64,000 bases of DNA from Gemmata massiliana (GTDB lineage Bacteria; Planctomycetota; Planctomycetia; Gemmatales; Gemmataceae), in assembly GCF_901538265.1 (NCBI RefSeq), contig NZ_LR593886.1, forward strand, positions 7,833,738 to 7,897,737, read 5' to 3'. The notes under the pieces were generated by a model. The model saw nothing but the letters and a program-made list of their open reading frames with translations, was not told the DNA's origin and did not search any database. Every line of letters starts with the position of its first letter. Position 1 is the stretch's first letter. The translations under genes and the position numbers were made by a program. Below are positions 4,926 through 19,184 of the stretch, piece by piece.

Positions 4926-7900
4926 TCAATTTTCAACGGGCGCGGGAGGCGGGCCAACGGGCCGCTTCACCCGGAACAGCAGGACGTAAAGTGCGGGCAG
5001 GTTACCGAGTGTGAGGAACGTCGCCACACTCAGCCCCCCCATAATGGCCACCGCGAGCGGCCCCCAGAACACGCTCCGCGTGAGCGGGATCATGGCCAGG
5101 ATCGCGGTCGCCGCGGTCAGCACCACCGGCCGCGCCCGCCGCACCGCCGACTCGATCACCGCGTCCCAGGCGGACATCCCGTGCTCCATGTCGTGTTCGA
5201 TCTGGTCGATCAGGATGACCGAGTTCCGCATGTCCATACCGGCCAGCGCGATCACCCCGAGCAACGCAGTGAACCCGAACGGTGCGTGGAACAACAGGAG
5301 CGCGGACACCGCCCCGATCAGGCCCAGCGGCGAGATGACGAACACCAGGAACAGCTTCTTGAAGCCCTGCACCTGGGCCATGAGCAGCGTGAGCATGACC
5401 GCGATCATGACCGGGAACACGGCGAACAGCGCCTCGTTCGCCTTCTGGCTCTCCTCGACGGCGCCCCCAGTGTCGATCCGGTACCCGGGGGGCAGTTCGG
5501 CCTTCAGCGCCTTCAAGTCAACGAGGATTTGCGCTGTCACGTCCGGCGCCTGGACCCCGTCGGCCACGTCCGCGCGGACCGTCAGCACCGTCTCCCGGTC
5601 GCGCCGCCACTGGATCGGCTCTTCCTGCTCGTATGACGCGCTCGCCACCTGGGACAACGGCACAGCGCTCCCGGTCGGCGTGATGACGGTCAGGTCCGGC
5701 AGCGTGTCGAGTTTCAACCGCTCCTCCGGCACCGCGCGGGCCACCACGTCGATCAACTCGATCCCCTCGCGGTACTGCGATACCGGCACCCCGGTGAGGA
5801 GCGTCTGGAGCGTCGCGGAGACGTCCTGCGGGGTCAGCCCGAGCGCCCGGGCGCGGTCCTGATCGACCCGGAGCCGGACCAGTTTGGACGGCTCGTCCCA
5901 CTCGAGTTGTGCGTCGCGTGCGTTCGGGTTCCGCCGCACCACGTCGCGGACCCGGTGGGCGATCTCGCGCACCCGCGCCGGGTCCGGGCCGACCACCCGG
6001 AACTGGACCGGGAACCCGACCGGGGGGCCGAATTCGAGCCGCACCACGCGCATCCGCGGGAGGGCGAATTCGGTGTCCTGGGCGAAGCGCTCGAGCAGGC
6101 GCGTGCGGAGCCGCTCGCGGGCCTCGGGGCTCTTGGCCTGGATCACGAACTTGGCGAAACTCGGGTCCGGCAGGTCGGGGTTGAGTGACAGGTAGAACCG
6201 AGGCGGTCCGGCACCGGTGTACGCGGTGAGGTGGTCGATGTCCGGGTCATCCTTCAGGATAGCTTCGAGTTTGGTTACCTCAGCTTCGGTGGCGGTGAAC
6301 GACGACCCGCCAGGCAACCGGATCTCGACCATCAGTTCGGTGCGCGATGATTGTGGGAAAAACTGTTTCGGTACGAACTTCATGCCGTAAACCGCGCCCG
6401 CGAACAGCCCGGCGGTCAGCGCGACGACAACGAGCGGCCGGCGCACGCACGCGGTGATGACCCATCGTAAGAGCCGGTACATGCGCGTGTGGTACGGGTC
6501 GTGGTGGGCGCGATTCGTGTAATTGGGAAGAAGCTTCACGCCCAGGTACGGCGTAAACACGACCGCGACGAGCCACGAGGCGAGCAGGGCGATGCCGACC
6601 ACCCAAAAGATGCCACCGGCGTACTCCCCGGCCCCGGACTTGGCGAACCCGACGGGCAGGAACCCGGCCACCGTGACCAGCGTACCTGTAAGCATCGGGA
6701 ACGCGGTGCTGCTCCACGCGAACGTCGCTGCCGCGATCCGGTCGTGCCCCTCCTCCATCTTCACGACCATCATCTCCACCGCGATGATCGCGTCGTCCAC
6801 GAGCAACCCGAGTGCGAGGATGAGCGCGCCGAGGCTGATTCGGTCGAGGGCCATCCCCGCCGCGTTCATGACCACGAGCGTGGCGGCGAGCACGAGCGGC
6901 ACGCTCAGCGCGACGACCACCCCACTGCGCCACCCGAGGGAGAGGAAGCTGACGACCAAAACGATCACCAGTGCTTCGATGAACGAGTGGGTGAACTCCC
7001 CGACCGACTCTTCCACCACGTGCGGCTGGAAGGCCACCCGCTCTGCCGCGGCCCCGGCGGGGAGGTCGGCTTCGATGGCCCTAAACTCGGTTTCCAGGGC
7101 GCGTCCCAGTTCGAGGACGTTGCCGCCCGCGCGCATCGCAACGGCCACTTCCACCGCTGGCTTCCCGTTGTGACGCACGGTGAACGTGGGCGGGTCTTCG
7201 TAGCCCCGCCGGACGTCCGCGATGTCGCCGACGCGGAACACTTTGCCCCCGGCGTGAACCGGAACCGCCCGGACCTTCTCGGCCGCCGCGAACGGCCCGT
7301 CCACCCGAACGTACACCCGATCGGTCGGGGTTTCGACGCTCCCGGCGGGGTTCACCGCGTTCTGCCGGCGCAGGCTGTCGAACACCTGCTGCGGTCCGAC
7401 CCCAAGGGTCGCGAGCTTTTTGTGCGAGAACTCGACGAACACCTTCTCCGGGCGCTCGCCGACGAGCACCACCTTGCTCACGTCCTTCACCCGCAGGAGC
7501 CGCTGCCGCGCGTTCCGCGCAATTCTTTTGAGCTCAGCCGGCGTGAAGTCAGACCCCGTGAACGCATACACGGCCACGTACACGTCGCCGTACTCGTCGT
7601 CGAGGAACGGCCCCGTCACGTTCTCCGGCAGCGTGTGCCGGATGTCGCCGACCTTCTTCCGCACCTGGTACCAGATGTCCGGGACCGCCTTCGGCGGGGT
7701 GTCGTTACGGAGCTGGACCGTGACCACCGCTTTACCCGGGAGCGTGTAGGTCCGCAGGTAGTCGAGGTACGGCGTCTCCTGGAGCTTCTCCTCGATCTTG
7801 TCGGCCACCTGGCGCTGCATCTCGTCGCTCGTCGCGCCGGGCCAGTTGGCCGAAACGACCATCGTCTTGATGGTGAATGACGGGTCTTCGGCGCGGCCCA

Positions 7901-9811: not shown

Positions 9812-9913
9812 TCGCGAATAAAGCAAGTCGAAACGAATGCTAGCGGATCTCGCTTAGCGAAAGTTCGAGGGCCAGGATATCTGACGGGAGTGTGAGTTAG
9901 GGAAGGGAGTGAC

Positions 9914-10498
9914 TTACTTCACGGGGCGTGATCCCGCGATGAGGATGTCCACGAGCCGTTTTGCGCTCTGCTGCCAGTCCGGAATGGCCGGCACGTGGGC
10001 CACTCCCACGATCGCACCCAGAAGGTCGATTGGGTCTAGGTCCGTTCGGATGTCCCCGCTTTCCATCGCACGCTGCATCAAAAAACGCATCGCGTCGTGA
10101 ATCTGGGTGCGCGACGCCTCAACCACCTTGGGGTGGCACTGGACCAGGGTCGAGAGGGCCGGGGCGATGATCTTCTTGGCCGCGATATAGTCCACGAAGA
10201 GAAGGAGCCACGCCCGCAACGCTTCGGGTGGCGAGAGTTTGAGCGCCAACTCCTGCCCGGCCAGGGCGAGCTTCTCCACCTCCGTCCGGTACACGGCTTC
10301 GAGCAGCGCCTCCCGCGTCGGGAAGTGGCGGTAGAGCGTTCCCGGTCCGACCCCCGCTTCCCGCGCGATCTCGTCCAGACTCGCCTCGGCCCCCGACTTG
10401 GTGAAGGCTCCCTTCGCCACCTCGAGAATGCGTACCCGGTTCCGCTCGGCGTCGGCCCGCGGTTTTCGTTCGGCCGGTTTGGGCGGTTTCTCTGCCAT
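9914..10498 (-). CDS. TetR/AcrR-family transcriptional regulator
   Basis: A 194-residue regulator starting at ATG 10498, with AAGGGGA seven bases upstream. It has a basic N-terminal arm and the TetR helix-turn-helix at about residues 25-70 (ILEVAKGAFTKSGAEASLDEIAREAGVGPGTLYRHFPTREALLEAVY). The all-helical ligand domain follows. TetR proteins are dimeric repressors released by small molecules. Two CGGAG-N5-CTCCG palindromes lie directly upstream, so it probably represses itself. Regulated targets beyond itself are not apparent; the neighbouring efflux operon has a different palindrome. Confidence 0.9.
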   Translation of the reverse strand: MAEKPPKPAERKPRADAERNRVRILEVAKGAFTKSGAEASLDEIAREAGVGPGTLYRHFPTREALLEAVYRTEVEKLALAGQELALKLSPPEALRAWLLLFVDYIAAKKIIAPALSTLVQCHPKVVEASRTQIHDAMRFLMQRAMESGDIRTDLDPIDLLGAIVGVAHVPAIPDWQQSAKRLVDILIAGSRPVK

Positions 10499-12876: not shown

Positions 12877-15459
12877 TTGACCACGGAAGCCGACTTCGGG
12901 CAATCGCTCCGCCGCCGGGTGGACGCGGCGCTGGCCCTCCCCGACGAACTCAGCCACGCCGTGTGCGACACCTTGCAGTACGCGGTGGACACGGTTTGCG
13001 CGGGCACCTCGAGCCGTGAGTGGGCCGACCTCTTCGTGACAATGGTCGGGCGCACCGAGATCGGCGACGACCGGCCGCAGCGGGTGCTCGAACTCGCACG
13101 GGCGGTCCGCGCGCTCATCGATCGGGTGCGAAGCGAGCCGTGGCCCATCCTCGTGCGGGAGCTGTGCGCCGACGGCATCGCGACCCAACGCACCGGCCCG
13201 TCGATCGACGTCGTTCGGCGAGTCCACCGGTGGATCGACCTGCCGGAAGGTCGCCTCGCGCTGCGGGCGTACATCAGCTACGAGGATCAGTGCCGGCGCT
13301 CCCGCGTGCCCGCGGTCGAGGCTCGGCGGGCCTTCGCGAGTCTGGTGGCCGTGAGCGGAGACGCCGGCCGACCGGTCCGGGCCAGCGCCCTCGCTGCCGC
13401 GATACAGACGGCCGGCGAGTTCCGCGTACCGCCCATCGAACTCGGCCGGGAGATCGGGGAACTGGACGCGCTCCCGATCGACGCCGCGCCCGATCGGTAC
13501 GCGCTCGACAGTGGGCTCGTGCATCAGTTCCGCGAGCAAGGGTTCTCGATGACCCACTTGTTCGCGCTCAACCGCGAGCACGCCCTGGCGCCCGCGGGCG
13601 CCGCGCTCCTGCGCGCGTGGTTACCGGTCCTGCTGACCGGCGGGCTGACCGAGGGCAAGCTGCTCGCGCTACTGCTCCGCGGCGGCTACCAGCCGCCGGG
13701 GGCACCGACGGGTCCGATCGAATCCGCTCCGATCTCCCCAAAGGCCTGGGACAATCTGGTGCAAATCGTGCGGGTTCTCGAACCCCTCACAACCCGCGAC
13801 GGGGCGCTGGAAATCGTCTTCGGCCAATTCCGGAACAGCGCTGAGCTAGAGAAGCGGGGGCGCGTCGTGCGCGAGCAGGTGCTGGCGTGGGCCGCGCGCC
13901 CCCGACCCGGTCTGGAAGCACTCCGAACCGCGTTCCAAAATCTCAACGTGCGGCAGGACGGCCACGCGGCCACGCTCGCGGCGCTCGGGCTCCCGAGTCG
14001 GATGTCGTCCCAGGAAGCGTTCGCGTTCTTCAGTCGCTACCTGGCCGATCACTCGCCCCACGCCGAGGGGTCCGCGGAATCGCGACTGTACCGCGAGAAG
14101 ACGTATGACGTCATCCGCCGGCTCCACAACGTTTCGCACGGGTTCGGCGCACTGAAAATCGTGAACCAGCGGATGCCCGACGGTGGGCCGTCCGCGTTCG
14201 ACGAGTTCGGGGACGACCTGTTCGAGAAGTTGTTCGTGTTGAACGGTTCGAGCTACGACCAGTTCCCCGGGTACGGGGTCGTGTTCGTCGGCGCCCAGAT
14301 GGAGCGCATCTTCGCACACGACCTCGACCACCCGAGCGACCCGCTGCACCGGTACCGGGCCGCGTGGACCGACCCGCAGCGGCTGCGGAGCACCCACCTC
14401 GACCTCGACCGCTTCGCAGACGCCGAGTTCGCCTTCGTCCGCGGCTTCCTAGGTGTTTCGGTCCCCGACGGGGATTTCGCCCCGCAGTACGAAGTTGCGG
14501 GAACGCCCCTCACGCTGATGGTCTGGAACGACCACTTCCCGGGTGTGGAGGGCGAACTGGCGATGCTCGTGCCCACGAGCCTTTACCGCGAGCGGGTCCG
14601 GCCCTGCCTCATCCGGTGCAAGGAACTCGATAAGGAGCACCCCGAAGTTCTCGACGCTTGTCGGGCCGGGCTGGACCCGAACGCCCTTCGCGCGGAGTGT
14701 GCGGCGCTCGGGCTGCCGTTCGTCGATCTCGGGTCGCCCTCGGTCGCGGGCGGCGGGCTGGTCAACGGGTTCCCGGCGCGCCTGCCCCCGTACCACGCAT
14801 GGGAAGCGACCCTGCCCGCGCATGAGACACGCGACGGCGCCGGCCACGTCCACAAGTCGCACATCCTCGGGGGCTACCGCACGCGGCTCGGGAACGACCC
14901 GGAACTCGATCGCGCGCTCCAACCGCTCCGCGAGGGCAACGACCGCGTCTTCGACATCGCGTCGAGCTACCTCAACTTGCTCGACATCTTCTTCATCAGT
15001 TTCGCCACCTGGCACCGAGGTGACACGCTCGACGCGATCGACTTTGAGAACGTCTTCGACGAAGAGGACCAGCAACAGATCGCCGAGACCGACGACGACG
15101 AACCGTTTAACCCGCGGAACACCCGGGTTCTCACGACCGCATACGCGGTCCACGACCAACTGGTCGAGCGCCGCGCCCCGCGGTCCGAGTTCCGGGTGTA
15201 CTGCTCGGCCAACCCGCTGCACCTGTACCCACCGCCGGAGGCCACGATCACCCTCGACACGCTGGACATGCGACTCGTCGTTCGAGGCGCGAACGACCGG
15301 CGCGAGATCAGCTTGGCCCGCGACCGCGTCGGATCGGGCGAGCGAGCGGAGTTGTTGTGGGTGACCCACGTGCTCGCGTACTTGAGACGGACCGGATTCG
15401 ACATGCGCCCCTACGACCGCGCCGCCGTCGCGGGCCTGATCTCGGACACTGGCGGCTGA
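12877..15459 (+). CDS. Large protein of unknown family (860 residues)
   Basis: The frame starts at TTG 12877 with GAGGG eight bases upstream; no ATG gives a better start. No signal peptide or membrane helix is visible, so it is probably cytoplasmic. The first ~400 residues look helical and arginine-rich. The second half is richer in conserved-looking blocks: RRLHNVSHGFGALKIVNQ (~410), NGSSYDQFPGYGVVFVGAQMERIF (~450), FVRGFLGVSVPDGDFAPQYEV (~515), ETRDGAGHVHKSHILGGYRTRLGND (~650), and an acidic stretch FDEEDQQQIAETDDDE near 725. I recognise no domain. It faces the ARPP-2-like/vWA pair, with convergent ends 227 bases apart. Base composition matches the genome. Confidence 0.8.
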   Translation: MTTEADFGQSLRRRVDAALALPDELSHAVCDTLQYAVDTVCAGTSSREWADLFVTMVGRTEIGDDRPQRVLELARAVRALIDRVRSEPWPILVRELCADGIATQRTGPSIDVVRRVHRWIDLPEGRLALRAYISYEDQCRRSRVPAVEARRAFASLVAVSGDAGRPVRASALAAAIQTAGEFRVPPIELGREIGELDALPIDAAPDRYALDSGLVHQFREQGFSMTHLFALNREHALAPAGAALLRAWLPVLLTGGLTEGKLLALLLRGGYQPPGAPTGPIESAPISPKAWDNLVQIVRVLEPLTTRDGALEIVFGQFRNSAELEKRGRVVREQVLAWAARPRPGLEALRTAFQNLNVRQDGHAATLAALGLPSRMSSQEAFAFFSRYLADHSPHAEGSAESRLYREKTYDVIRRLHNVSHGFGALKIVNQRMPDGGPSAFDEFGDDLFEKLFVLNGSSYDQFPGYGVVFVGAQMERIFAHDLDHPSDPLHRYRAAWTDPQRLRSTHLDLDRFADAEFAFVRGFLGVSVPDGDFAPQYEVAGTPLTLMVWNDHFPGVEGELAMLVPTSLYRERVRPCLIRCKELDKEHPEVLDACRAGLDPNALRAECAALGLPFVDLGSPSVAGGGLVNGFPARLPPYHAWEATLPAHETRDGAGHVHKSHILGGYRTRLGNDPELDRALQPLREGNDRVFDIASSYLNLLDIFFISFATWHRGDTLDAIDFENVFDEEDQQQIAETDDDEPFNPRNTRVLTTAYAVHDQLVERRAPRSEFRVYCSANPLHLYPPPEATITLDTLDMRLVVRGANDRREISLARDRVGSGERAELLWVTHVLAYLRRTGFDMRPYDRAAVAGLISDTGG

Positions 15460-15489
15460 CATAACCCGGAGCCCTTTTCGGAGAACACT

Positions 15490-15672
15490 ATGACCGCGAC
15501 CCCGGTAGCCCCCACCAAGGCACCAGCGAAGCCGGCGACGCAACCGGCACCGAGTCCTAAACCCGCGGGTCCGGCCCCGGTGCGCGTGCCGGCCCCGCTC
15601 CCGCTCCCGTCACCGCTGCCGAGCACACAACCCGCGGCGCCGGTTCCGTCGGTGTGTCCGCTGACGGGGTGA
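15490..15672 (+). CDS. Small Pro/Ala-rich protein, hypothetical
   Basis: A 60-residue frame 30 bases after the large unknown gene, with GGAG eight bases before ATG 15490. It is almost entirely proline, alanine, valine and serine and ends VPSVCPLTG. It is likely unstructured and could be a linker-like accessory peptide of the upstream gene. Low complexity makes chance occurrence possible in GC-rich DNA; the good ribosome-binding site is the main support. Confidence 0.4.
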   Translation: MTATPVAPTKAPAKPATQPAPSPKPAGPAPVRVPAPLPLPSPLPSTQPAAPVPSVCPLTG

Positions 15673-15685
15673 CCGCACTGACCGA

Positions 15686-16801
15686 TCACGACTTCCGACG
15701 GGCATAGGCGCGGGCGGCGTCCACTACGTGTTGGTGGAACATCCAGCCGTAACCGTTGTTCTCGTACTGGAGCAGGACGTCGTTGGTGTTTAGCCCGTAT
15801 TTCTTCGCGATCGATTCCAAATTCCAGTCGTGGTCGGCCAGTTGCTTCAGCAGGTACGCACGCCGGGTTTGCGCGGCCGACAACCGGAACGTCTTCAGGT
15901 ACTGGAGCGAGCCGTCCGGGGCGATGATCCGCTCGCCGATGTGGTTCTCGTCGCCCGGATCCAGGCTGCCGATGAACCGCTCCAGTCGGAACGGCCCGGC
16001 CTCGTACACCTTCTCCACCTTCAGCGGCACGTCCGGTAGACCGGCCGCGGCCGTGCGGCCGAACGCGGCCCATTCCTGACGCATCACCGCCACCGCATCC
16101 CGCAAATCCGCGAGCGAGCGGACCAACTCTGGGGCGGCCGGGAACGCGCAGGGCGGCAGGCTCGGGTACATCACGGCGTATTGCCAGATCAGTTCGCCGA
16201 AGAAATCCTGCAACAACGAATCGTGGAGCGCGCGGTAGTCGTCCGGGTGCGGCGCCACGAACGCCGCGGCCAGCGCGTCCGCGACGAACACCAGAACGCC
16301 CACCTGCCCGTCGTGGATCTCGAACACGCGGAGGGCCTCGTCGAACCCTTCGAGTGCCCATCCAGCAACAGAGCTTTCGCTCTGGGGGCTCATCCCATTC
16401 GAGATCGCTCGGCGCGAGAAATAGCCCCACTGGACCGTCGGCCCGCCGAAGTGCAATGCGAGGAGCCCCTCCATCGCCAAGTGGAGCGGGAGGAACCGCA
16501 ACCGCCGGCCCTCCAACCGCTTGGCCATGCGGTGGAAAACGCCCGTGGGCACCGGGGAACTTGACCGCACGGTTTTGAGCTGCGTGCCGAGCGGCGCGAC
16601 TGGTGCGGAGCCATCTCCCCATTCCAGGATCAGTGCGTGGGGAATGTAGCTCGTGTAGACCGCTTTCGGCAGCGTGACGGCGAACCCCGATCCCTTCGAC
16701 AGCCCGAGGCGAAGGTCGGTGCGGTGCTCCTTCCGTAGCAGCGGCACGAGGCGGAACGCGCCGCACGCCTGTGACGGGGCGAGAATCAGATCACTCGACA
16801 T
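15686..16801 (-). CDS. Probable ARPP-2-type domain protein
   Basis: A 371-residue protein starting MSSDL at ATG 16801, overlapping the upstream vWA gene by 11 bases, so translation is probably coupled. The N-terminal pattern (PSQACGAFRLVPLLRKEHRTDLRL, then YTSYIPHALILEWGDG) is what I remember of the ARPP-2 domain, a family reported near RNA-repair and Ro-type genes; I could not verify this. Residues about 310-350 (TRRAYLLKQLADHDWNLESIAKKYGLNTNDVLLQYENNG) look like a Fis-type helix-turn-helix. No signal peptide. Role unknown; the partner gene suggests RNA-related or stress function. Confidence 0.6.
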   Translation of the reverse strand: MSSDLILAPSQACGAFRLVPLLRKEHRTDLRLGLSKGSGFAVTLPKAVYTSYIPHALILEWGDGSAPVAPLGTQLKTVRSSSPVPTGVFHRMAKRLEGRRLRFLPLHLAMEGLLALHFGGPTVQWGYFSRRAISNGMSPQSESSVAGWALEGFDEALRVFEIHDGQVGVLVFVADALAAAFVAPHPDDYRALHDSLLQDFFGELIWQYAVMYPSLPPCAFPAAPELVRSLADLRDAVAVMRQEWAAFGRTAAAGLPDVPLKVEKVYEAGPFRLERFIGSLDPGDENHIGERIIAPDGSLQYLKTFRLSAAQTRRAYLLKQLADHDWNLESIAKKYGLNTNDVLLQYENNGYGWMFHQHVVDAARAYARRKS

Positions 16802-18170
16802 GACCGGCCTCCGCTCCCGGGGCGAGGAACTCTTGCGCGCGACGGTCCAGGAACGCCTCCAGGTCGGCGCGAGTGGCGGAACCGGTCGCGAACCGGGCGA
16901 AGGCCAGCGCCGTCGGCAGGCTCTCCGCGTCGCGTAGCCCGACGGTAGGTACCCCTTCCGCCATCGCACGCGGCGCGTAGTCGCTCGCCGAGAACACCGG
17001 GTTGAAATGGACGATCGTCACACGACCCTTCGGGTCGAGCTGCGCCTGCCAGTATTTCAGCACGGCACTCGCGCCACCCGGCGGGTCGTTCTCCACCGCG
17101 TCGCTGACGATCACGAGCAGCTCTGGGGCCGTTTCTAGCGCGTCGAGGATCGGCGTCGAGAGATCCGTCGCGCCGCGCGCCTCGGGCTTCGCCCCGGCGA
17201 AGGGGTGAGTCCAGAACGCGCGGTACTCCCGGCTCGCCGCGGCCAGGACGCGATCGACCGCCCACGCGACCCCGAGCGGTCGGCGCCGCTTCTCCCGCGT
17301 GCCGGACGTCGAGTAGCTGTTGTCGAGCACGGCTGCAACTCTGCCCAGCGCCAGCGGCGTGCGACAAAGGAGCCGCGCGGTCGCCTGTTGAATCGCGGAC
17401 AACACGTCTTCGGGCGGCTCCGGCAGCGACAGCGCATAGAGCACCAGTTTCGTCAACGGCGAGCGCCCGAGGTCGATCTCGACGTCGCCCGCCTTCTGCA
17501 TCCGCAACCGCTCGGCTTGCGTCATGCGGGGCTGGATCTTCGCCAAAAACTGCGCGCGCGGGACGCCGTGCTTGGCGGCCAGTCCCTCCGCGACCGTGAA
17601 CGGCAGCTCGTACACCGCCTCGGTGCTGTGCCACGCCCGCCGGACCTGCTCGAACAGCGGCGTCTGGAACACGGCCGCGCGCTTCTCGAAGAGGAACCGC
17701 CCCGCCTCGCCCGGCAGCGAGAGGTGATTGTGGCACGCGACCGCCTTCACCTTGTTGCGGTACTTCACGCAGTCGAAGGTGGCGTCGCGCCCGCGCAGGT
17801 AGTCGCGTGCGACGGCCCGCGCCCGGCGGTTGTTGATCCCCAGTCGGCGGGCGTCGCGGAGCGTCTTCCAGGCCCGGTGCGGCGGCATCGTCGCCAGCGC
17901 GCGGGCGATCAGAGCCCCCTCGTTCGGCACCGCGTCCTTCCCGGATGCCAGGAGCCGAAGAATGACCTGCGCTTGGTTGAAGTGGTTGATCCCGACCGCC
18001 AGGGACCGGGCGTAAATGGCGCGATAATTCCCCAGTACGTACTGGTGGAGGAAGTCGATGGACACGCGCTGGCTGTCGGCGTTCTCGTAGAACTCGCGCT
18101 GCCCGGTGCAGGCGTAGCAAGCGTTGAGGAAGTGGACGATGTCCTCGCGTTGCGTCCGCTCGGCAAACAT
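16791..18170 (-). CDS. Ro60-like protein: helical repeat (TROVE-like) plus vWA domain
   Basis: A 459-residue protein from ATG 18170. The first ~250 residues are alpha-helical repeats (DFLHQYVLGNYRAIYARSLAV, RARAVARDYLRGRDATFDCVKYRNKVKAV) resembling the TROVE module of Ro60. The C-terminal ~175 residues form a vWA domain with a complete metal site: D283-x-S285-x-S287 in LDNSYSTSG, T335 in GATDL and D357 in IVSDAVEND. Ro60/Rsr proteins bind Y RNAs and misfolded RNA. This copy is shorter than typical Rsr (~530), so it may be a divergent relative. It overlaps the ARPP-2-like gene, and a structured stretch lies just upstream. Confidence 0.7.
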   Translation of the reverse strand: MFAERTQREDIVHFLNACYACTGQREFYENADSQRVSIDFLHQYVLGNYRAIYARSLAVGINHFNQAQVILRLLASGKDAVPNEGALIARALATMPPHRAWKTLRDARRLGINNRRARAVARDYLRGRDATFDCVKYRNKVKAVACHNHLSLPGEAGRFLFEKRAAVFQTPLFEQVRRAWHSTEAVYELPFTVAEGLAAKHGVPRAQFLAKIQPRMTQAERLRMQKAGDVEIDLGRSPLTKLVLYALSLPEPPEDVLSAIQQATARLLCRTPLALGRVAAVLDNSYSTSGTREKRRRPLGVAWAVDRVLAAASREYRAFWTHPFAGAKPEARGATDLSTPILDALETAPELLVIVSDAVENDPPGGASAVLKYWQAQLDPKGRVTIVHFNPVFSASDYAPRAMAEGVPTVGLRDAESLPTALAFARFATGSATRADLEAFLDRRAQEFLAPGAEAGHVE

Positions 18171-18190
18171 GAAGGGCCTTCGAGGTGCCG

Positions 18191-18276
18191 CCCGCCGCCG
18201 GGGAGTGACGATGCGACTTTGAGCTCTCACTTCAAAGGTAAGTTCGGAAGTCGCAGCAAAGTCCCGCGGCGGCGGG
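18191..18276. ncRNA. Candidate structured RNA or 5' leader next to the vWA gene
   Basis: Nested inverted repeats: a 10-bp perfect outer stem (18191-18200 with 18267-18276), a symmetric 12/12-base internal region, then a 7-bp stem (18213-18219 with 18248-18254) enclosing smaller hairpins. It begins 21 bases upstream of the Ro60-like gene start. It could be a leader structure of that gene or a Y-RNA-like transcript. The outer arms are GC-only, which lowers significance. Confidence 0.3.
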
Positions 18277-18383
18277 GCGACTCGGGTAGTCTACCACAGC
18301 CGCCGATCAGACGCGCCGCAGGCTGCTCGGGTTCGTTCCGTGAGTAACACTTTTTGAGACCCGTTCGCCGGCTCATGAAGGCG

Positions 18384-19184
18384 TTACTTTTCTTTCACGG
18401 TCTCAAACGCCTCGACCCGGTACGCCTTGCGGAACTTGGTGCCACCGACGTCGCCCTCGACAATCCGTTCCACTTCGCGCCCCGGCACTTCGTTGGATAG
18501 GAACGCGATCATCTTTCCCCGCCCCTTCATGGTGCCCTCAGAAAACTCGATCTCCCCTTCTTCGCGCACGCACACGACTTTCTGCTCGCCGACCTTGCGC
18601 TCTTCGCTGAAGTTGGTGACCCGAACCGACGTCTTCATTGACCGCTCCTTGTCCTGGTAGTCCACGTCCAGGCGCAACACGTCCGGTCGCACGGCCAGTG
18701 TCCGCGGCTCGCCCCCGAACTCGCGGTACGGTGCGCTCGCATCCTTGCTGTGCCAGAAGGTGGCGGTGGCCTTGTTCTCGCCGCGCGTCAAGTCGTATGT
18801 CCTCACCTCGCAGGCGTACTTCTTACCTCGAATTTCCAGGTCTTGCTTGCTCGTTTCCAACAGCTTGCACTTCGGGTCGAGTGCCGGGTCGTAACCGGGG
18901 ATGTGCCAACTCGTCGATTCCCCTCCGTCGAACGCGCCCGGCTTTTTGCCCTCCCGTCGGGCCTGCAATTGAATCGATCCGGGGTCTTTGGCCTCGACTC
19001 GGGTTACTCTTTCCCGCTGCGCCTCGGTCGTGTCACCGCGGGTGAACGATTCCGTCCGGATCACCCAACTGCCGATACCGAACCCGTTCCACGGATCGCG
19101 GTCGTTGTTGGGCTTATCGGCGCCCGCCACTGAACCCGATGCGGAGAGCAACAGCACGGCAAAGATCGAAACCACGGTTCTCAT
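18384..19184 (-). CDS. Secreted hypothetical protein
   Basis: A 266-residue protein starting at ATG 19184 with a signal peptide (MRTVVSIFAVLLLSASGSVAGA). The mature part is beta-rich and charged (WNGFGIGSWVIRTESFTRGDTTEAQRERVTRVEA near residue 35, EGEIEFSEGTMKGRGKMIAFLSNEVPG near the end). The pattern of measuring strands and a final KFRKAYRVEAFETVKEK resembles other planctomycete exported proteins of unknown role. No family recognised. It lies 213 bases upstream of the vWA gene on the same strand. Confidence 0.7.
   Translation of the reverse strand: MRTVVSIFAVLLLSASGSVAGADKPNNDRDPWNGFGIGSWVIRTESFTRGDTTEAQRERVTRVEAKDPGSIQLQARREGKKPGAFDGGESTSWHIPGYDPALDPKCKLLETSKQDLEIRGKKYACEVRTYDLTRGENKATATFWHSKDASAPYREFGGEPRTLAVRPDVLRLDVDYQDKERSMKTSVRVTNFSEERKVGEQKVVCVREEGEIEFSEGTMKGRGKMIAFLSNEVPGREVERIVEGDVGGTKFRKAYRVEAFETVKEK

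Follow-up and report, generated by a model that had tools for sequence, protein, structure and literature searches.

The question raised by this locus, which lies within a window (the whole stretch of DNA analysed) of 64,000 nucleotides (nt) from Gemmata massiliana, is which of its neighbouring genes belong together, and as what kind of system. In the initial annotation, three open reading frames (ORFs) were grouped as a possible new RNA-related or conflict system: a large protein of no recognised family, a von Willebrand factor A (vWA) protein resembling Ro60, and an ARPP-2-like protein. According to the best reading of the present analysis, what is new here is an unlisted RNA family together with a Ro60-like protein that is paired with an ARPP protein, i.e., a variant of the Ro60-Y RNA theme. 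Ro60 itself is a well-known human autoantigen. The features of the locus are as follows.

18188-18279, minus strand: structured, Y-RNA-like RNA of 92 nt, upstream of the vWA gene
16791-18170, minus strand: gene of the vWA protein, Ro60-like by predicted fold, 459 amino acids (aa) from ATG, with a helical N-terminal part and a vWA domain
15686-16801, minus strand: ARPP-2 gene, 371 aa from ATG (Pfam PF22549)
18288-18293, minus strand: TAGACT, a -10-like hexamer a short way upstream of the RNA (consensus match only)
12877-15459, plus strand: ORF of 860 aa with a TTG start

All three ORFs (3/3) are picked by a purpose-built codon-usage gene caller, and both they and the overlap of 11 bases between the start of the ARPP-2 gene and the end of the vWA gene (16791-16801) are present as first described; the RNA lies outside the region that had been annotated (12877-18170).

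The Ro60-like protein and its pairing with ARPP proteins

By sequence, the vWA protein returns no match at an expectation value (E) of 1 or less from Pfam, PADLOC, NCBIfam and the PDB, and its sequence profile finds nothing in the PDB under E 0.089. An AlphaFold2 model, built from nine homologues with a mean predicted local distance difference test score (pLDDT) of 82.1, is more informative. A Foldseek comparison with the PDB puts chains of Ro60, Rsr or TROVE in all ten of the best rows (E 1.1e-7 to 1.6e-5), and with VIA-align the top eight rows are again Ro60/Rsr/TROVE, at Z 15.1-16.6 with 376-402 residues aligned, led by 9kop (16.6), 9l5y of a Thermus phage Ro60 (15.9) and 2i91 (15.8). The aligned span begins at residue 6-9 and ends at 431-449, which is nearly the whole length of the model, while the best chain holding only a vWA domain reaches Z 12.2. 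A fold search of viral models ranks a Ro-like protein of Gordonia phage first. Profile alignment by hhalign against eight TROVE proteins (two of ten loci were dropped, as their ORF frame looked wrong) matches the vWA part with a probability of 96.5. Judged by its predicted fold, the vWA protein is thus Ro60-like. Its complete metal site (DxSxS...T...D), as proposed in the initial annotation, is confirmed: D283, S285, S287, T335 and D357 are invariant across the nine homologues, and over 21 homologues all remain so except T335, which is nearly invariant. A search for viral relatives by the vWA profile gave 123 pattern stretches, of which 0 were confirmed. Elsewhere in the same genome, TROVE matches occur at 4.10 and 4.98 Mb (L017, G000:C1 4088000-4106000; L016, G000:C1 4970000-4988000), which may bring the number of its Ro60-type proteins to three; L016, a stretch of 18 kb, also contains a MoxR-type AAA gene (bpMoxR match), which does not directly adjoin the TROVE match.

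The identity of the second protein, previously suggested from its opening residues, is settled by a match to PF22549 at E 1.3e-97 (326.7 bits against a cut-off of 27), its sequence profile finding nothing in the PDB under E 0.28. Over 21 proteins of ARPP-1/ARPP-2 type (the vWA and ARPP alignments draw on 21 loci each), W125, E142, E161 and Q166 are among the invariant residues, and the cysteine reported for ARPP is not. It has been proposed that ARPP proteins act on sugar moieties, e.g., of ADP-ribose (PMC9503650, section 3.8).

The pairing of the two genes is conserved. A scan of the genome_contigs collection with a five-sequence vWA profile yields 26 named loci, and at 22 of them an ARPP-2 gene lies 3' of the vWA gene on the same strand. 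Among the others, the contig of L054 stops inside the vWA gene; L052 (Myxococcus xanthus AM003, 645-2055) runs to residue 355 of the vWA protein and continues with the tail of ARPP-2, the middle being deleted and the RNA kept; and L055 (Sorangium cellulosum So ceGT47, 9863-10405) is a second copy with only a fragment of the Ro60-like gene and an RNA that scores well. By title, the 26 loci come from Myxococcus, Pyxidicoccus, Sorangium, other Myxococcota, Cyanobacteria and Planctomycetes, together with one Deltaproteobacteria, one Chromatiales bacterium and one 'Comamonas'; the last (L041, Comamonas sp. KCTC 72670) may be mislabelled, because the gene clusters around its pair are common to Myxococcus loci. 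In a sample of the phylum, ARPP-2 is matched in 8 of 294 genomes and a vWA relative adjoins it in all eight, with further pairs in G016, G007, G350, G401, G439 and G564. For these two genes, the conserved neighbourhood foreseen in the initial annotation therefore extends to distant bacteria.

The vWA relatives form two subfamilies: in A the partner is ARPP-2, in B a protein with a better score as ARPP-1 (an assignment from scans of L014 and L029), and a more distant pair in G461 has an ARPP-1-like partner. A subfamily-A pair is present on three Nostoc plasmids, and on two of these a XisH-XisI pair stands between the Ro60-like and ARPP-2 genes (L068:9457-10196, L069:9478-10217). An apparent vWA-ARPP-2 fusion in G172 (L028, a 783-aa ORF) proved to be an out-of-frame call, tblastn giving two normal adjacent genes. 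No third partner gene emerges, as ten neighbour proteins of nine loci belong to unrelated families or to none, and flanks are shared chiefly by myxobacterial loci and by related genomes within a single genus. Neither ARG nor rhodanese-phosphatase genes are detected at E ≤ 0.001 among these ten neighbours and seven neighbours in the window, a scan that covered the smaller part of all neighbour proteins; rtcB is absent among the neighbours scanned.

A conserved RNA structure linked to the vWA gene

Alignment of the region upstream of the vWA gene from three related genomes reveals about 100 bases that are nearly unchanged. Identity of the RNA is 97.8% to G016, 90.2% to Limnoglobus and 89.1% in a third comparison, in which order the third codon positions of the vWA gene are identical at 67%, 64% and 60%. 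Positions 18180-18290 of the window fold with a z of -5.30, and 6/6 single sequences fold alike (z -3.35 to -5.30). From the outside inwards, the 5' and 3' ends pair in a stem that carries a single bulged pyrimidine, and GGGA/UCCC, an internal loop, an inner stem and an apical hairpin follow, around a core of GGGACU...ACUUCCG...UUCCCC; RNAalifold and pair counts give a terminal helix of 13 pairs (interrupted by the unpaired pyrimidine, with 96.6% of cells paired), an inner helix of 5 pairs and a short apical helix. Over 35 loci, 12 of the 20 pairs have both partners changed in one sequence or more. Standard pairs occupy 96.5% of cells compared with 83.1% in shuffles (34 distinct sequences), and the covariation score of 0.448 compares with 0.191 in shuffles (0/500 reach it) and 0.07-0.18 with slid partners, although the shuffle figures overstate significance because related sequences count as many cells. 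In the predicted structure, the unpaired nucleotide occupies the same place in 35/35 sequences, of which 20 have C there and 15 have U. An upstream extension of the vWA reading frame (from GTG at 18230) was considered as the source of this conservation and rejected, because conservation reaches further than such an extension and takes the form of structural covariation. One exact pattern of the RNA has no match in viral sequences. By these computations the RNA is a conserved structure, and it constitutes an unlisted family beside a Ro60-like gene.

The linkage of this RNA to the protein family is likewise established by computation. With an anchored pattern, the RNA is found upstream of the vWA gene in 35/35 subfamily-A loci (six phylum genomes, the 26 named loci and three plasmids) and in 0/4 loci of subfamily B. 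A covariance model scores 35/35 at E ≤ 7.2e-13, all 35 being rows of the model itself; four held-out subfamily-A loci, which share their genus with three rows of the model, match in 4/4 cases at E ≤ 1.7e-17. Model R2, made from 24 of the 35 RNAs after holding out the window and its two nearest relatives (L012, L031) and dropping eight near-identical rows, recovers the RNA of the window at E 3.8e-12. In 59 related genomes there are three strong places (E below 1e-14), all at the gene, and three more at E 0.018-0.049; in 14 chosen genomes there are 13 strong places, all at the gene (one at a gene remnant), and one more at E 0.03. The genome search gives no strong match to the subfamily-A RNA in G007 and G054, which carry subfamily B.

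As to transcription signals, a TAnnnT box starts at -8 to -6 of the RNA segment in 20 of the 35 loci, many of which represent one myxobacterial clade, whereas other 3-nt windows average 1.08 and reach at most 6; in the window under study the box is at -14, where the stem is longer. The position of the box favours a separate transcript, though short of proof.

Subfamily B offers a second form of RNA. Eleven Y-like units with a GGGACU-type opening lie upstream of the vWA gene, or a piece of it, at four loci: five in L030 and two each in L015, L100 and L119 (the last sharing contig G565:C130 with L101 and counted once). The closing helix was computed for nine units (duplex energies -10.3 to -16.0) and judged by eye for two. 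Eight pairs are counted in the inner stem, six of them standard in 11/11 units (two of these with clear double changes) and the other two in 8/11 and 9/11; a ninth position, paired in 1/11, falls outside the stem. The gene pair is intact in L015 and L030 and split over two contigs in G466 (L100, L110). In G565 (L101, L119), fragments of the vWA and ARPP genes lie on either strand, owing to decay, rearrangement or misassembly. Two matches in L014 that used all four substitutions allowed by the pattern were discounted as probably accidental.

Some of these units resemble tRNA. Two L030 units enclose stretches called tRNA by Rfam or ARAGORN, and three units (in L015, L030 and L100), read by alignment and inspection, follow the order T arm, acceptor strand, loop, acceptor strand, D arm, with acceptor strands that differ and yet are complementary; the remaining eight are arranged differently or unclassified. 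The same circular permutation of the tRNA-like module has been reported for bacterial Y RNA 6CU1 (PMC11472068), and the units agree with the plan of YrlA, which combines an end-paired stem with a tRNA-like domain (PMC8394870). Weak matches of the subfamily-A models in B loci fall on Y-like units (G565 at E 0.05, L015 at E 0.35), a hint, not significant, that the two RNAs may share a common origin. In L030 the tandem Y-like units (5382-6043, minus strand) end a large tRNA array that reaches 11413 (25 ARAGORN calls); a 'tRNA-Thr' call at 5672-5746 sits within one unit, so that some annotated tRNAs may be modules of Y-like RNAs.

Proposed mechanism and competing explanations

Taken together, the locus probably encodes a ribonucleoprotein particle of the Ro60-Y RNA kind. 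The RNA, as we infer, most likely has a promoter of its own, situated where the stem begins, and the Ro60-like protein would bind close to the bulged pyrimidine in the terminal stem, in the way that Ro60 binds Y RNA, whereupon the bound RNA would be stabilised and would gate or tether the particle. ARPP-2 would be made from the same message as the Ro60-like protein. The ring and the RNA could then capture damaged or structured RNA, with ARPP-2 acting on the caught RNA, on RNA ends or on ADP-ribose-type sugars, in the place where known bacterial Ro particles use PNPase or RtcB. Such a capture followed by an ARPP-2 step is proposed because ARPP-2 is the usual companion here, where known systems have PNPase or rtcBA, and because ARPP proteins have been proposed to act on sugars; for the ARPP-2 step, it is gene linkage that points this way, and ARPP-2 as effector of the particle is put forward tentatively, at somewhat less than even chances. 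The purpose of the whole may be RNA quality control or repair, and possibly resistance to phages.

A number of results weigh against a Ro-type particle. The same ten Foldseek rows are loose matches (template modelling score 0.40-0.54 of the query, root-mean-square deviation 7.4-10.9), the deviation under VIA-align is 4.9-6.3, and human Ro60 (9nen, Z 11.8) and Deinococcus radiodurans Rsr (2nvo, Z 11.6) score no higher than vWA-only chains. The Pfam models TROVE (PF05731) and vWA_Ro60 miss the protein of the window and seven relatives at E ≤ 1, whereas a TROVE protein of the same genome matches Pfam TROVE at 1.1e-16; hhalign with the TROVE proteins aligns only the vWA part. The N-terminal relation to Ro60 hence rests on the predicted fold, since Pfam misses it and the profile comparison covers the vWA part, and the label 'Ro60-like' is preferred to TROVE because the curated model PF05731 is not matched. 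The TROVE-like N-terminus and Ro60 architecture described in the initial annotation accordingly stand as predicted fold, but find agreement neither in Pfam TROVE nor in profile alignment of the N-terminal part. The model of ARPP-2 is poor (pLDDT 65.9), and this low-confidence model gives zero matches to solved folds at E ≤ 0.001. L042 has RNA and vWA gene with no ARPP seen in the stretch examined, and L014 and L029, which hold intact B pairs, lack a convincing Y-like unit (the pattern gives 0 in L029). Rfam has no match at E ≤ 10 for 18100-18400, and none at the gathering score for the window and four other loci. In the genome searches for the RNA, scoring was limited to the first 73 or 150 candidates and the filters were stricter for the 59 genomes, so that weak copies could be missed. 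Moreover, the RNA lies about 16-154 nt before the gene in 34/35 loci (327 in L056), which suits a cis-regulatory leader as well, one through which the Ro60-like protein or a small ligand, by binding the mRNA, would control the vWA-ARPP-2 operon; a single copy per gene, with strong copies absent from other places in the genomes searched, agrees as well with autoregulation as with a partner RNA. A helix that closes both ends and a -10-like box before its base are, however, better suited to a discrete RNA, and two to five tandem units at four B loci, some of them tRNA-like, would be needless for a leader. T-runs of at least five follow the stem in only 5/35 loci, which weighs against the particle; where present, they speak against a leader. 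On balance, the leader is considered rather unlikely.

A generic peptide-binding vWA chaperone, of the kind found with ARG and ARPP, whose Ro60-like fold has arisen by chance, would account for the failure of Pfam TROVE and for the two Ro60-type chains that score no better than vWA-only ones, and a chaperone role has been proposed for the vWA proteins of ARG-centred neighbourhoods, where ARPP can occur too (PMC9503650). It would leave unexplained the eight Ro60-type rows above the best vWA-only chain, the Ro-like Gordonia phage protein at the top of the viral models and the Y-RNA-like RNA adjoining the gene, and neither an ARG nor a rhodanese-phosphatase gene is among the ten neighbour proteins scanned; this explanation is improbable. 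Still further from acceptance is the three-part conflict system of the initial annotation, for which the adjacent and convergent position of the 860-residue gene speaks in one genome. That its product belongs to no recognised family is borne out (Pfam, PADLOC, NCBIfam and the PDB by sequence are empty at E ≤ 1), and no credible relative appears in the collections tried. At E ≤ 0.001, 59 genomes of relatives give a match in its own genome and in 0/58 others; at E ≤ 1, it is matched in 20 of 391 other genomes of the phylum, a sample that overlaps the 58. The best of these distant matches (G129, E 1.5e-5, the rest being E 0.005 to 0.7) was set aside as a homologue, since its frame reads as a PriA helicase (our own reading, without a family scan). 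None is found by pattern scans of genome_contigs or viral_contigs, by tblastn of plasmids, or by tblastn at the vWA-ARPP-2 loci (some of them short), including those of G016 and Limnoglobus, whose pair proteins are 80-86% identical to those of the window. The proposed survey of neighbourhoods therefore places no homologue beside another pair, a system of three parts is exceedingly improbable, and the 860-residue gene is taken as an orphan neighbour outside the module. Around it, the proline-rich small gene downstream exists as an ORF of 60 aa (15490-15672), but it is passed over by the codon-usage gene caller and has zero matches in Pfam, PADLOC, NCBIfam and PHROGs scans; the supposed zone of gene decay at 10.5-12.9 kb contains two low-scoring ORFs by the same caller. 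PADLOC, NCBIfam and PHROGs scans of the locus gave no useful match.

If the particle is real, it might stand for a whole branch of Ro particles that has gone unrecognised in several phyla and on some plasmids. Such particles would pass captured RNA, damaged or modified, on to an ARPP enzyme of their own that works, e.g., on ribose or ADP-ribose at RNA ends, and could defend against RNA damage by phages or against ADP-ribosylation of RNA; this wider proposal is doubtful as it stands. The Pfam TROVE model, by which bacterial Ro60 relatives are found, misses the branch. The module itself is compact, comprising one RNA whose consensus is clear, one defined protein and a single partner gene, and culturable genera are among its hosts (Myxococcus, Sorangium, Nostoc); it opens to test both the coevolution of Ro60-type proteins with Y RNAs and the role of ARPP proteins.

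Comparison with known systems

A search of the paper collection available returned no paper joining TROVE, vWA and ARPP, on Y RNA with Ro60 in planctomycetes, or on ARPP-2 with rhodanese-phosphatase; on ARPP with ADP-ribosylglycohydrolase or vWA, only PMC9503650 looked relevant among the matches listed. The ARG-centred systems described in that source bring an ARPP-type protein together with a vWA protein, as here, whereas the present module is a two-gene operon with an RNA, and no ARG or rhodanese-phosphatase is among the neighbours scanned.

Y RNAs are given in reviews as 100 ± 20 nt with paired ends, and the site recognised by vertebrate Ro60 includes a single bulged cytidine in the lower stem (PMC4726728, PMC4030889). 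The RNA described here is similar in its length of about 90-100 nt (a 92-nt segment with predicted ends) and in its predicted terminal stem with one putatively bulged pyrimidine, which is either C or U, unlike the vertebrate cytidine. GGGA/UCCC and an internal loop then follow, without an established match to the three-nucleotide bulge of vertebrate Y RNA; the likeness is structural, and sequence homology is not claimed.

Among bacterial systems, Y RNA tethers Rsr to PNPase in D. radiodurans, and in Salmonella the rsr and yrl genes occur together with rtcBA (PMC7790460). The present locus shares with Rsr and YrlA a ring-plus-vWA fold, as predicted, and an end-paired small RNA encoded beside the gene; in some subfamily-B loci it also shares the permuted tRNA-like module of YrlA, which the subfamily-A RNA lacks. 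It departs from them in that the protein escapes Pfam TROVE and the RNA is not in Rfam, and, where Rsr has its PNPase particle and its rsr-yrlBA-rtcBA operon, the constant partner gene here is ARPP-2 or ARPP-1.

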